Positions 36,414-48,092 of a stretch of DNA of 64,000 nucleotides are shown here, in pieces; the stretch's first letter is position 1, and every line of letters starts with the position of its first letter. The notes below the pieces were generated by a model. That model was not told the origin of the DNA and did no database searches. It saw only the letters and a list, made by a program, of their open reading frames with translations. The stretch is from Nocardiopsis eucommiae. GTDB lineage: Bacteria; Actinomycetota; Actinomycetes; Streptosporangiales; Streptosporangiaceae. The stretch is taken from positions 372,001 to 436,000 of the forward strand of contig CP074402.1 of assembly GCA_018388625.1 (NCBI GenBank), in the 5' to 3' direction. A program made the translations under genes and the position numbers.

Positions 36414-37110
36414 ATGCGTAAGTTCCTTGTCGTCTTCCTGATCCTGCTCGCCGCGCTCGTCGTGGTGGCGGACGTCGGAGCGCGTTCGTTCGCGCAGAGC
36501 ACCCTGGCCGGGCGTCTGGCCGACCAGATGGAGATGTCCGAGGACCCGGACGTGTCCATCGAGGGGTGGGCCTTCCTCCCCAGGTGATCAGCGGCACGTA
36601 CACCGAGGTCAACATCGAGGCCGACAGCGCCACGATGGGCGGCGTGACGGTGGAGAAGATCGAGGCCACCGCCTCCGACGTCGAGGCGCCCCTGAGCGAC
36701 CTCATGGACCAGCCCACGGTGACCGCGGGCCAGGTGGACGGTTCCTTCGTGGTGCCCTACGCCTACTTCAACCCGTACCTGCCCGAGGGCATGACCATCA
36801 CCACCGAGAACGGCGAGCCCCGCATCAACGGCGAGCTGGCCGTGCCCGAGCTGGGCCGGAGCGTCTCCGTCTCCAGCGCCGGGGAGTTCAGCGTCGACGG
36901 CGACACCCTGCACGTCACCCCGGTCGACATCGAGGTGGCGGACGTCCCCTCAACGTGGACGCCATGGTCTCGACCATGCTGACCTTCAGCGCGCAGGTGC
37001 CCGAGCTGCCCTTCGGCCTGACCGCCAAGGAGATGGAAGCCACCTCCAACGGCCTCAAGATCACCGGCACCGGCAACGACGTTCCCCTGATGGGCTCCGA
37101 GGCCGTCTGA
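36414..37110 (+). CDS. LmeA-like (DUF2993) envelope protein (two frameshifts)
   Basis: About 232 residues after repair. N-terminal membrane/signal segment (KFLVVFLILLAALVVVADVG), then a beta-rich phospholipid-binding-like domain: IEGWAFLPQVISGTYTEVNI and TVEKIEATASDVEAPLSDLM and NGELAVPELGRSVSVSSAGE. In mycobacteria LmeA binds phospholipid and helps build mannosylated glycolipids. Breaks near 36579 and 36948, each CCCC to C5. GGGAG lies before the ATG. Its stop overlaps the thioredoxin start (TGATG). Confidence 0.82.
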
Positions 37111-37431
37111 TGACCCCGGCGGCGGAGACGCTCGGCCCCGACGATCTCGGTGCCGAGCTGGGCGCGAGGGCCACCCTCGTGCAGTTCTCCAGCGCCTTCT
37201 GCCAGCCCTGCCGCGCCACCCGCCGTGTCCTGGAGGACGTGGCGGGCATGGTCGAGGGGTGGCGCACGTGGAGGTCGACGCCGAGTCCCGGCTGGACCTC
37301 GTACGTCGGCTGGAGGTCCACGGGACCCCCACGGTGTTCGTGCTGGACACCGGCGGCCGGGTGGTCCGCCGGGCCGGGGGCAGCCCCGCAAGGCCGACGT
37401 GATCGCCGCCCTGGGCGAGGCGGTGCTCTGA
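37110..37431 (+). CDS. Thioredoxin-like protein (two frameshifts)
   Basis: About 107 residues after repair. The redox site is QFSSAFCQPCRATRRVLE (CxxC). Repair near 37259 (GGGG to G5) gives EGVAHVEVDAESRLDLVRRL, and near 37379 (G5 to G6) gives VRRAGGQPRKADVIAALGEA. A cis-proline segment is GTPTVFVLDTGGRVV. Its start overlaps the LmeA-like stop by one base, indicating coupling; it may keep an envelope or cytosolic partner reduced. Confidence 0.82.
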
Positions 37432-37463
37432 CGGGCGCCCCCGCGACGCCGCCGCCACCGCTC

Positions 37464-37490
37464 CGGGCGTCCCACATCCTGGGACGCCCG
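37464..37490 (+). terminator. Terminator after the thioredoxin gene
   Basis: Eleven-base perfect arms (37464-37474, 37480-37490) with a CATCC loop, 33 bases after the stop. Confidence 0.75.
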
Positions 37491-37510
37491 TCCTGTGATC
37501 CAGGACACCC

Positions 37511-37540
37511 GTGACAAGGTCGCGGTGCGGCCTGTAGCGT
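37511..37540 (+). promoter_or_regulatory. Promoter of the sulfurtransferase leader
   Basis: A GTGACA box (37511-37516) and a TAGCGT box (37535-37540), spaced by 18 bases, lie so that transcription would begin at or beside the GTG of the leader peptide at 37548. That suggests a leaderless first ORF. Confidence 0.5.
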
Positions 37541-37547
37541 CTAGGAC

Positions 37548-37634
37548 GTGACTTCCTTGACGAGCGCGTATCTGACGAAGCGACGAGCGGTGGACTTCTG
37601 CCGCGTCGCTGCCGCGCTCTGTCCGTGTCCCTAG
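37548..37634 (+). CDS. Cysteine-containing regulatory leader peptide
   Basis: A 28-residue ORF starting at GTG: VTSLTSAYLTKRRAVDFCRV, then AAALCPCP and TAG. The core KRRAVDFCRVAAALC matches the small leader peptides seen ahead of sulfur-metabolism genes in actinobacteria. There are cysteine codons at three near-terminal positions (TGC, TGT, TGT), so ribosome progress depends on charged tRNA-Cys. A GTGACA/TAGCGT pair upstream puts the transcription start near the GTG. It is followed by about 370 bases with hairpins, then sseA. I infer cysteine-responsive attenuation. Confidence 0.75.
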   Translation: MTSLTSAYLTKRRAVDFCRVAAALCPCP

Positions 37635-38006
37635 GGCGGACGGGCCCTCCGAGCCCCCGCTCGCTCCGTGCGACCGGCCCCTTCCGCGTACGCGCTGGGA
37701 ACGACGGCGTTCACCCGTCGTTCGCCCCGGACCCCGACCACATCCGACGGTTCCCTCCCCTCCGTCGCCACCGTCGGTGACCCCGGGAACATCCTCCGTC
37801 GTACCCGGAACGGCTCGCCACCGCCGCGACCGCCCTTTCCCACGCGTAGTGCCTCTCCCGCGCCCTTCCGCGCCACCGGTGGATGTTTCGGTGGCCGTCG
37901 GGGGCGGGGAGGCCGCCCCGAAACCCCTGTTCCGGGCACCGCGCCCCCGGAACGCGACGCACCGACCGCACACGCGACACCGCACAGAAAGCACAGGAGG
38001 TTCCTC
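37635..38006 (+). promoter_or_regulatory. Long structured leader between the leader peptide and sseA
   Basis: No ORF of interest is visible in 372 bp. Two clear hairpins are a 9-base perfect stem (37699-37707 with 37715-37723) and a 7-base stem (37930-37936 with 37946-37952). These could be alternative attenuator or anti-attenuator structures. CAGGAGG, just before 38007, is the ribosome-binding site of sseA. Confidence 0.5.
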
Positions 38007-38852
38007 ATGAGCCGCTCCGACGTCCTCGTGGACGCCGCTTGGGTGGAGGCTCACCTGGACGACGCCAACGTCGTCCTGGTCGAGGTGGACGAGGACACGT
38101 CCGCCTACGACAAGGGCCACATCCCCGGCGCTGTCAAGATCGACTGGAAGACGGACCTCCAGGACCCGGTCCGCCGCGACTTCGTGGACCGCACCGGCTT
38201 CGAGAAGCTGCTGTCCGCCAAGGGCATCGGCAACGACGACCAGGTCATCCTGTACGGCGGCAACAACAACTGGTTCGCCGCCTACGCGTACTGGTACTTC
38301 AAGCTCTACGGCCACGACAACGTCCGCCTGCTCGACGGCGGCCGCAAGAAGTGGGAGCTCGACTCCCGCGAGCTCGTGGAGGAGGTCCCGGAGCGGGCCG
38401 CCACCGAGTACAAGGCCCAGGAGCAGGACTCCTCGATCCGCGCCTTCCGCGACGAGGTCGTCGAGGCCATCGGTACCAAGGACCTGGTCGACGTCCGCTC
38501 GCCCGACGAGTTCACCGGCAAGCTGCTGGCCCCCGCGCACCTGCCGCAGGAGACCTCGCAGCGCCCGGGGCACATCCCGACCGCGCGCAACATCCCGTGG
38601 GCCAAGACCGCCAACGAGGACGGCACCTTCAAGACCGCCGACGAGCTGCGCGAGCTGTACACCGAGGCCGGGGTGGACCTCGACAAGGACATCATCGCGT
38701 ACTGCAGGATCGGCGAGCGCTCCTCGCACACCTGGTTCGCCCTGCACGAGATCGTCGGACTGGAGAACGTCAAGAACTACGACGGCTCCTGGACCGAGTA
38801 CGGCTCCCTGGTGGGCGTCCCGGTCGAGCTCGGAGAGGCTGAGGCCAAGTGA
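38007..38852 (+). CDS. sseA: Thiosulfate/3-mercaptopyruvate-type sulfurtransferase (rhodanese)
   Basis: 281 residues, two rhodanese domains. The C-terminal active loop AYCRIGERSSHTWFAL has the catalytic cysteine of CRxGxRS type used with thiosulfate; the N-terminal domain (AAWVEAHLDDANVVLVEVDE, VILYGGNNNWFAAYAYW) lacks a cysteine. In actinobacteria this gene is also called cysA. AGGAGG sits seven bases before the ATG. It overlaps the DUF1416 start and lies behind the cysteine leader peptide. Confidence 0.93.
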   Translation: MSRSDVLVDAAWVEAHLDDANVVLVEVDEDTSAYDKGHIPGAVKIDWKTDLQDPVRRDFVDRTGFEKLLSAKGIGNDDQVILYGGNNNWFAAYAYWYFKLYGHDNVRLLDGGRKKWELDSRELVEEVPERAATEYKAQEQDSSIRAFRDEVVEAIGTKDLVDVRSPDEFTGKLLAPAHLPQETSQRPGHIPTARNIPWAKTANEDGTFKTADELRELYTEAGVDLDKDIIAYCRIGERSSHTWFALHEIVGLENVKNYDGSWTEYGSLVGVPVELGEAEAK

Positions 38853-39154
38853 GCGACAGCTGCGGAGCACCCGAGGGCGGCGTGGCCCTGGCCGACGTCG
38901 ACGCGGGCAACCAGGCGGTCATCCAGGGCACGGTCACCCGTGAGGGTCAGCCCCTGCGTGGCGCCTACGCCCGTCTGCTGAACTCCTCCGACGACTTCGT
39001 CGGGGAGGTCGCCACCGGTGACGAGGGCACCTTCCGCTTCTTCGCCGCCGACGGCGAGTGGAAGCTGCGGGTCCTGGCCTCCCAGGGCTTCACCGGCGAG
39101 TACACGGTGACGGCCGAGGTCGGCAAGGTCATCGACGTCCAGGTCGAGGCCTGA
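38849..39154 (+). CDS. DUF1416 family protein
   Basis: 101 residues, GTG start overlapping the sulfurtransferase stop by four bases. QAVIQGTVTREGQPLRGAYA and TGDEGTFRFFAADGEWKLRV give a small beta-sandwich (carboxypeptidase regulatory-like) fold. The pairing with sseA is conserved in actinobacteria from memory. An N-terminal SCGAPEGG holds one cysteine that could accept sulfur; this is speculation. Confidence 0.9.
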   Translation: MSDSCGAPEGGVALADVDAGNQAVIQGTVTREGQPLRGAYARLLNSSDDFVGEVATGDEGTFRFFAADGEWKLRVLASQGFTGEYTVTAEVGKVIDVQVEA

Positions 39155-47854: not shown

Positions 47855-47865
47855 CGGAGCACGCA

Positions 47866-47881
47866 GGAAAGGAGGTGGTCC
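47866..47881 (+). promoter_or_regulatory. Extended Shine-Dalgarno complementary to the whole 16S 3' tail
   Basis: GGAAAGGAGGTGGTCC can pair with all 16 bases of the actinobacterial 16S 3' end (the reverse complement of which is AGAAAGGAGGTGATCC): 14 Watson-Crick pairs and 2 G-U. No other gene start in this window was seen with such extent. Confidence 0.7.
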
Positions 47882-47886
47882 GAGAG

Positions 47887-47925
47887 ATGATTCATTCAAG
47901 GACTGGCGAGGTGGCCGTCCGCTAG
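47887..47925 (+). CDS. 12-codon small ORF
   Basis: ATG ... TAG encoding MIHSRTGEVAVR, placed behind the extended Shine-Dalgarno and a promoter-like pair, with a terminator 50 bases later. Length is too small to judge by composition alone; the whole context suggests a real, independently transcribed small-protein or dual-function RNA gene. Could also be only a ribosome-loading site of a regulatory RNA. Confidence 0.5.
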   Translation: MIHSRTGEVAVR

Positions 47926-47978
47926 GGCGACGCCGAGCGTTCGCTCGACGTCGTTCGCGCGAATACCTGACGGACACC

Positions 47979-48043
47979 CGAACCCCGGGCTGCCGGACCT
48001 GGTCCGACCGGCCCCGCACAGGCGGGACAGAGCCCGGGGTTCG
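47979..48043 (+). terminator. Terminator-like hairpin after the 12-codon ORF
   Basis: 13-base perfect arms (47979-47991, 48031-48043) around a 39-base loop that contains smaller GC stems. A smaller hairpin with a 5-base stem (CGAGC/GCTCG) lies at 47933-47946. Ends about 50 bases before the convergent nitrobindin-like stop. Confidence 0.65.
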
Positions 48044-48092
48044 CCCATGCCCCGACCACGGGTCGGAGCGCGACCGCGAAGGCCGCGTACGG

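Follow-up and report, generated by a model that had tools for sequence, protein, structure and literature searches.

The locus raises the question of what a 28-codon ORF with a Cys-containing C-terminus does at the 5′ end of an sseA operon, and by which route it could act on genes that begin only after a gap of 372 nt. Within the window (the whole 64-kb stretch of DNA that was analysed), the ORF, its promoter and the genes that follow are located as listed.

37511-37540, + strand: promoter of the leader ORF, with −35 GTGACA at 37511-37516, an 18-bp spacer and −10 TAGCGT at 37535-37540.
37548-37634, + strand: leader-peptide ORF of 28 aa, VTSLTSAYLTKRRAVDFCRVAAALCPCP, with GTG start and TAG stop, leaderless by promoter geometry.
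37599-37601, 37620-37622 and 37626-37628, + strand: Cys codons of the leader ORF (Cys18, Cys25 and Cys27), read from the sequence.
37995-38000, + strand: Shine-Dalgarno AGGAGG of sseA, read from the sequence and near-invariant in alignment A2 (40 genus loci).
38007-38852, + strand: sseA, a two-domain rhodanese-type sulfurtransferase (PF00581, two stretches, E 3.9e-37).
38849-39154, + strand: DUF1416 gene, overlapping the sseA stop (PF07210, E 2.4e-35).

By comparing the locus with its relatives, we conclude that the ORF is very probably a leaderless, putatively cysteine-responsive leader peptide (attenuator ORF) for sseA-DUF1416, of the kind known before mycobacterial cysA2/sseA. As in the Ms5788A family, it lies at the 5′ end of an sseA/cysA2-type operon, and its −10 box stands seven bases ahead of the GTG, which places the predicted transcript start at or adjoining the start codon; a leaderless start of the Ms5788A type is judged for 37548 from this promoter geometry alone. 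The three Cys codons are non-adjacent, without the run of consecutive Cys codons that marks the Ms5788A type. A consensus scan of 37400-38050 returned no sigma-70-like promoter, because TAGCGT agrees with TATAAT at 3 of 6 positions and falls below the threshold. The geometry itself (TGACA, spacer, TANNNT and a gap of 6-7 nt to the start) is kept in 38 of 38 loci examined in the genus, and a TANNNT box 5-8 nt ahead of an in-frame start was found at 82 of 86 leader loci versus 9 of 530 random start codons. Directly upstream of the leader, a thioredoxin-like gene appears split over frames (37110-37514, 37150-37431 and 37259-37402), and the weakly LmeA-like gene from 36399 that precedes it is likewise broken; the assembly is rated 84% complete, and indels from sequencing may account for these broken frames.

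The leader peptide passes the curated cut-off of NCBIfam NF042934 (cis_reg_atten, 'putative leader peptide'; 31.6 bits, cut-off 27) and misses by 2.3 bits that of the stricter NF042933 (Ms5788A Cys-rich leader; 42.7 bits, cut-off 45), which was reached in none of the 40 Nocardiopsis genomes of the genus set, the source genome included. At E<=0.001, NF042933 matched in 40/40 genus genomes, 39/41 mixed relatives and 199/296 class genomes, and in 0/14 control genomes. The same picture was obtained independently of the HMM, from loci picked by sseA alone: among 578 named relatives, of which N. metallicus has the sequence closest to the sseA of this genome (98%), the best 80 loci carried a leader in 79 cases, with 1/80 in a reverse-strand control, and 78 of those 79 leaders had a −10-like box with leaderless spacing. 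Of the 97 HMM-negative class genomes, 20 were checked and 12 had an sseA-like gene; a divergent leader was found at five (L102-L106) of seven sseA loci with at least 65% identity, the search picking up none at the other two, and six more distant loci yielded one leader. For alignment, 86 of 92 loci were used, six (L080, L081, L086, L094, L097 and L101) having failed the search pattern; all six do have a leader, with His at the pattern's Arg in the first five and Val at the first Cys in L101. The genus alignments comprised 38 of 40 loci (A1, pattern failures left out) and all 40 (A2). Given its presence in every genus genome, the box geometry, its recurrence before sseA and the low controls, the leader is not a chance ORF. 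The initial annotation, which had described a 28-codon leaderless-looking ORF with its own promoter and likened it to mycobacterial Cys leaders, here before sseA-DUF1416, is therefore borne out by promoter geometry and by homology; since the leader is of a known actinobacterial kind, this core idea holds up without being novel. No Rfam family matched at the leader; the sole gathering-score Rfam match in the window is RF02471 (Ms_IGR-5, an actinobacterial sRNA) at 47861-48049 on the + strand, with 93.4 bits.

The gap between leader and sseA appears to have a history of its own, as its alignment with a DUF4395-bearing sister locus (L076) suggests.

37635-38004, + strand: what is probably left of a DUF4395 gene, together with the region 5′ of it and the pre-sseA stretch, collinear with L076 by blastn.

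Three blocks aligned in order: 37635-37702 with the region ahead of the DUF4395 gene (82.6%), 37804-37836 within the gene (81.8%, E 1.6e-4) and 37957-38004 ahead of sseA (91.7%). The gene itself is still recognisable in that single 33-nt middle stretch, and the order of the blocks makes it probable that the rest is relic as well. In another sister (L031), a 568-nt gap aligns over its full length at 73% yet gives no DUF4395 match, which is the pattern that would be expected of a recent pseudogene. DUF4395 (PF14340) is found in 11/40 genus genomes, lying within the leader-sseA gap in 11 of the 38 aligned loci; it has no match in the source genome, whose assembly is 84% complete, nor in G018, the closest sister, whose completeness is rated at 100%. 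In each of the 29 genus genomes that gave no DUF4395 match the leader has been kept, which indicates that the leader is not merely the switch of DUF4395.

Where DUF4395 is present, its Shine-Dalgarno site is complemented by the final codons and the stop of the leader. The stems measure 10 bp and are of GUGUCCCUAG:CUGGGGACAU type in 7 of the 11 DUF4395-bearing genus loci; they are UUUCCUGA:UCAGGAGA in group f17, GCUUCCCG:UGGGAAGC in L092 and UGUUGCUG:CAGCAACA in 3/13 loci of group f6. In a swap test designed after these examples had been seen, matched pairs scored 14.1 versus 12.6 for family swaps (sd 0.58, p 0.005; 43 loci, 9 families). Inside single families, the swap test showed no significant difference (p 0.17, 0.36 and 0.30), and genus and family taken together gave 0.00015. 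The duplex energy of the whole leader 3′ half with the DUF4395 site showed no gain over codon shuffles (mean z +0.80, +0.01, +0.04 and +0.13 in four groups), and within the genus no compensatory change was found for the tail pairing. On this mixed evidence, the end of the leader may pair with the ribosome-binding site of DUF4395 in the relatives that have the gene. The former tail pairing still averages 17.0 versus a background of 13.4 at the 27 genus loci that lack DUF4395, and the tail could there be serving something else than the DUF4395 site; the source locus scores 14, at background. Pairing of the leader 5′ end (ACUUCCU) with the sseA Shine-Dalgarno, which the minimum-energy fold had displayed, was discarded, being no better than swaps (p 0.37 for 86 loci, 0.09 for the 43 without DUF4395), and pairing of the leader 3′ end with the same site was likewise no better than swaps (p 0.64 and 0.87 for the same two sets).

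Folding of the ORF together with the gap was mildly better than that of shuffles (z −1.89, 3/100 shuffles as low), and three hairpins were considered.

37559-37623, + strand: hairpin P1, predicted within the leader ORF from a 5′ arm at 37559-37568 and a 3′ arm at 37613-37623, the 3′ arm containing the second Cys codon.
37634-37662, + strand: hairpin H1 from the last base of the leader stop codon, GGGCG:CGCTC (one G-U) and GGGC:GCCC.
37929-37953, + strand: hairpin P3, ending 53 nt ahead of the sseA start, its position kept in the genus and its sequence changing.

Synonymous recodings of the leader ORF fold less well than the ORF itself, both in the genus (mean z −2.42, 14/38 loci) and in the rest of the family (−2.11, 14/16 loci), and across the other 11 families the mean z ranged from −2.48 to +1.05. 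P1 has 99.3% of cells paired over the 38 genus loci and reaches only p 0.044 in its swap test; being nearly invariant, it makes covariation uninformative. A covariance check of the hairpins in relatives, as the initial annotation had proposed, accordingly gave none for P1, and none beyond shuffles for H1 (92.0% of cells paired, 38 genus loci); compensatory changes within the genus were absent for P1 and P2 alike. The position of H1 is nevertheless recurrent, in that a perfect stem of at least 5 bp beginning within 8 nt of the leader stop is found in 18/38 genus loci versus 3.8 in shuffles and in 19/30 Streptomyces-like loci versus 3.0. For P3, a perfect stem of at least 6 bp ending 40-60 nt ahead of the sseA ATG occurs in 28/40 genus loci with 17 distinct arms, 24 loci falling in the 48-59 nt bin versus 1.8 in shuffles, both in sisters that carry DUF4395 and in sisters that lack it; when A2, the MAFFT alignment, was folded with RNAalifold, P3 was not recovered and nothing useful emerged. 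Two further features of the initial annotation fared less well. Its 370-base leader is not supported as a purpose-built element and appears instead to be what is left of DUF4395, intact in 11/40 genus genomes and not found here. The stem at 37699-37723 that it offered as the switch does exist as 9 bp in the source sequence, yet we reject it in that role, as the other 37 genus loci have no perfect stem of at least 7 bp at the same place, with L046, L049 and L078 forming different stems 82-115 nt past the leader stop. An apparent long-range covariation, GGGCGGWC:GWCCGCCC, was also set aside, its 3′ arm being read as a remnant of DUF4395 coding sequence. Among Streptomyces-like loci (L135-L162, from 40 regions, of which L165 and L172 gave no sseA), leaders are compact (108-229 nt), many with a hairpin just past the stop and, by eye, a second hairpin of GGCCCT..AGGGCC type; they are good material for a covariance study.

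Based on these features, a working model can be proposed, in which a ribosome would start on the 5′-terminal GTG. When Cys-tRNA is ample, the leader would be finished quickly and P1 in the ORF and H1 behind it would fold, so that expression would be poor; under cysteine shortage, pausing at the conserved Cys codons 18, 25 and 27 would keep these folds open and raise downstream expression. In relatives with DUF4395, the likely target would be the Shine-Dalgarno site of that gene, through its pairing with the end of the leader (final codons and stop). In the source lineage DUF4395 is gone and the pairing is at background while the leader persists; control would therefore have to act on sseA by a different route. 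This is the weak step of the model, and our guess is that transcription ends early, in a Rho-type manner, within the untranslated, C-rich relic (37641-37870), or that the fold around P3 is responsible. The C-over-G excess of the 230 nt from 37641 ranks at percentile 99.9 in the window when both strands are counted, and such a C-rich, G-poor composition would fit a Rho-dependent route; since the gaps of DUF4395-bearing sisters are C-rich too, it is only a hint of a Rho site.

The peptide itself is strongly conserved. The core RRA[VI]D is present in 86/86 aligned leaders, a set selected first by HMM hit and next by a pattern of which the core is part, and synonymous sites vary between families. 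In the 79 leaders from the best 80 of 578 sseA loci, whose pattern required RR/K..D and not Cys, Cys stands at both D+2 and D+9 in 79/79, two Cys following the Asp in 69 and three in 10; the five HMM-missed leaders L102-L106 all have Cys at D+9, two of them as their single Cys. Paralogues of the leader are numerous in the class, up to 11 per genome in a Streptomyces-like group (f18). Among 20 paralogue regions from four genomes, retrieved by a model of which the core forms part, 13 have the core (one being the sseA leader) and 7 lack it by pattern; a leaderless-type box at the start picked was seen in 4 of the 13, so many paralogues may not be leaderless. A single Cys is present in 4/12 of the paralogous leaders in other operons. 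The source genome holds three further leader-like ORFs with the core (L034-L036): RRHVDFLRVSSAICC ahead of a nitrite/sulfite reductase, above the NF042934 cut-off, and RLHVDLRQQASALC ahead of an FMN reductase and RWHIDLCRFSSHAC ahead of an SDF symporter, both below it. By Pfam, genes 3′ of paralogues elsewhere include ThiS-type carriers (2 loci), luciferase-like monooxygenases (2), an NMT1-like binding protein and a molybdopterin oxidoreductase, and the genes downstream of paralogues presumably have sulfur roles (CysO, SsuD, SsuA and the like). In a same-family relative (G057), one leader (L133) precedes a pyruvate/2-oxoacid ferredoxin oxidoreductase, which is not a cysteine-pathway gene.

That the core and the D-x8-C spacing persist even in one-Cys leaders, and that the core is common to leaders on different RNAs, leads to another reading, in which the nascent chain rather than the codons is the sensor: RRxVD in the exit tunnel together with the Cys nine residues on would halt the ribosome at low levels of cysteine or of charged Cys-tRNA, and the sequence, not the number of Cys codons, would count. 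The invariance of D+9 and the 69 leaders with just two Cys after the Asp favour it, as do the single-Cys leaders among L102-L106 and the paralogues; a codon-based pause would keep the last Cys codon as well, and both the alignment and the paralogues come from selections that contain the core. We regard arrest as a possible but doubtful explanation. Its generalisation, that actinobacteria have widespread cysteine-sensing arrest peptides in which an RRx[VI]D tunnel motif is followed by a sensor Cys at a distance of exactly nine residues, the peptides being shared across different sulfur operons, workable with one Cys codon and coupled to fast-changing RNA parts (Shine-Dalgarno pairing, post-stop hairpin and pre-sseA hairpin), is put forward as a tentative and rather unlikely proposal.

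The strong conservation of the peptide would also fit an ORF that is translated into a small functional protein, such as a metal or redox peptide, instead of a cis-regulator, but this is very improbable given that leaders precede sulfur operons, that several paralogues per genome stand ahead of different genes, and that NCBI names the family cis-regulatory. A Rho-independent transcription attenuator, with P3 or a similar U-less hairpin as terminator ahead of sseA, would account for a hairpin position kept with many different arms, but the consensus scan of 37400-38050 returned no terminator-like site or hairpin with a T-run, and 65-nt segments around P3 folded no better than shuffles in this GC-rich sequence (genus mean z −0.25), leaving this an unlikely mechanism. 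Lastly, the apparent loss of DUF4395 and the background-level score of the source tail with the old Shine-Dalgarno region would suit a leader that is an inactive leftover of DUF4395 control; against this stand its retention in 29/29 genus genomes without the gene and the five changes that the DUF4395 label needs on the sseA tree (38 genus loci and three outgroups), at least two of them forced by starred branches, and we give a leftover very little credence. A cysteine-responsive attenuator ORF stays our preferred reading.

Leaders of this kind are thought to be bacterial switches that raise sulfur-gene output at low cysteine, and the mycobacterial cysteine switch is here extended to Nocardiopsis, Streptomyces, Actinomadura and others as a near-constant companion of sseA. 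That the leader peptide outlives its neighbouring gene, DUF4395, poses a sharp question, namely whether the signal is the Cys codons or the nascent chain. A 2020 study by Canestrari is reportedly an experimental paper on actinobacterial Cys leaders. Its mechanism is described, in the available part of a paper citing it, as translation attenuation (PMC13236596). Earlier, Cys leader peptides had been predicted before actinobacterial cys operons without terminators, with Rho suggested and the mode called unknown in the accessible text (Seliverstov 2005, PMC1262725), and mycobacterial uORFs were described at cysA2/Msmeg_5788 and nirA/Msmeg_4527, the former, with its Cys cluster, being ribosome-occupied in M. 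smegmatis according to the available excerpt (Shell 2015, PMC4633059). Among the matches listed in a literature search with subscription journals mostly outside its coverage, no paper dealt with an sseA leader in Nocardiopsis or with an arrest-peptide mechanism for it.

In E. coli tna, which is likened here by logic and not by homology, the shared logic is possibly that of a stalled ribosome blocking Rho. TnaC is Rho-dependent and senses free Trp. Among homologous systems, the Ms5788A family (NF042933; the uORF of cysA2/Msmeg_5788) shares with the source leader the site before an sseA/cysA2 operon, the leaderless start, the RRAVDxCRVA core and the Cys-containing C-terminus; the source leader differs in scoring below the family cut-off, in having three separate Cys where the mycobacteria-like group f6 has 6-8, and in the absence of DUF4395 from its operon. 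NF042934, whose cut-off the source leader passes, is a broad model that is mute on mechanism. The Cys leaders of the Mycobacterium, P. acnes and B. longum cys/cbs operons resemble it, as far as the available text of PMC1262725 goes, in being short ORFs whose Cys codons lie close to the stop, in having no terminator and in the suggestion of Rho, and differ in their Cys runs and in partly different operons. The LEU element before leuA, as presented in the same part of that source (PMC1262725), responds to leucine and involves a pseudoknot, and is likewise compared by logic rather than homology, yet its regulatory codons pair with a downstream Shine-Dalgarno site, just as we propose for the leaders of DUF4395-bearing relatives.
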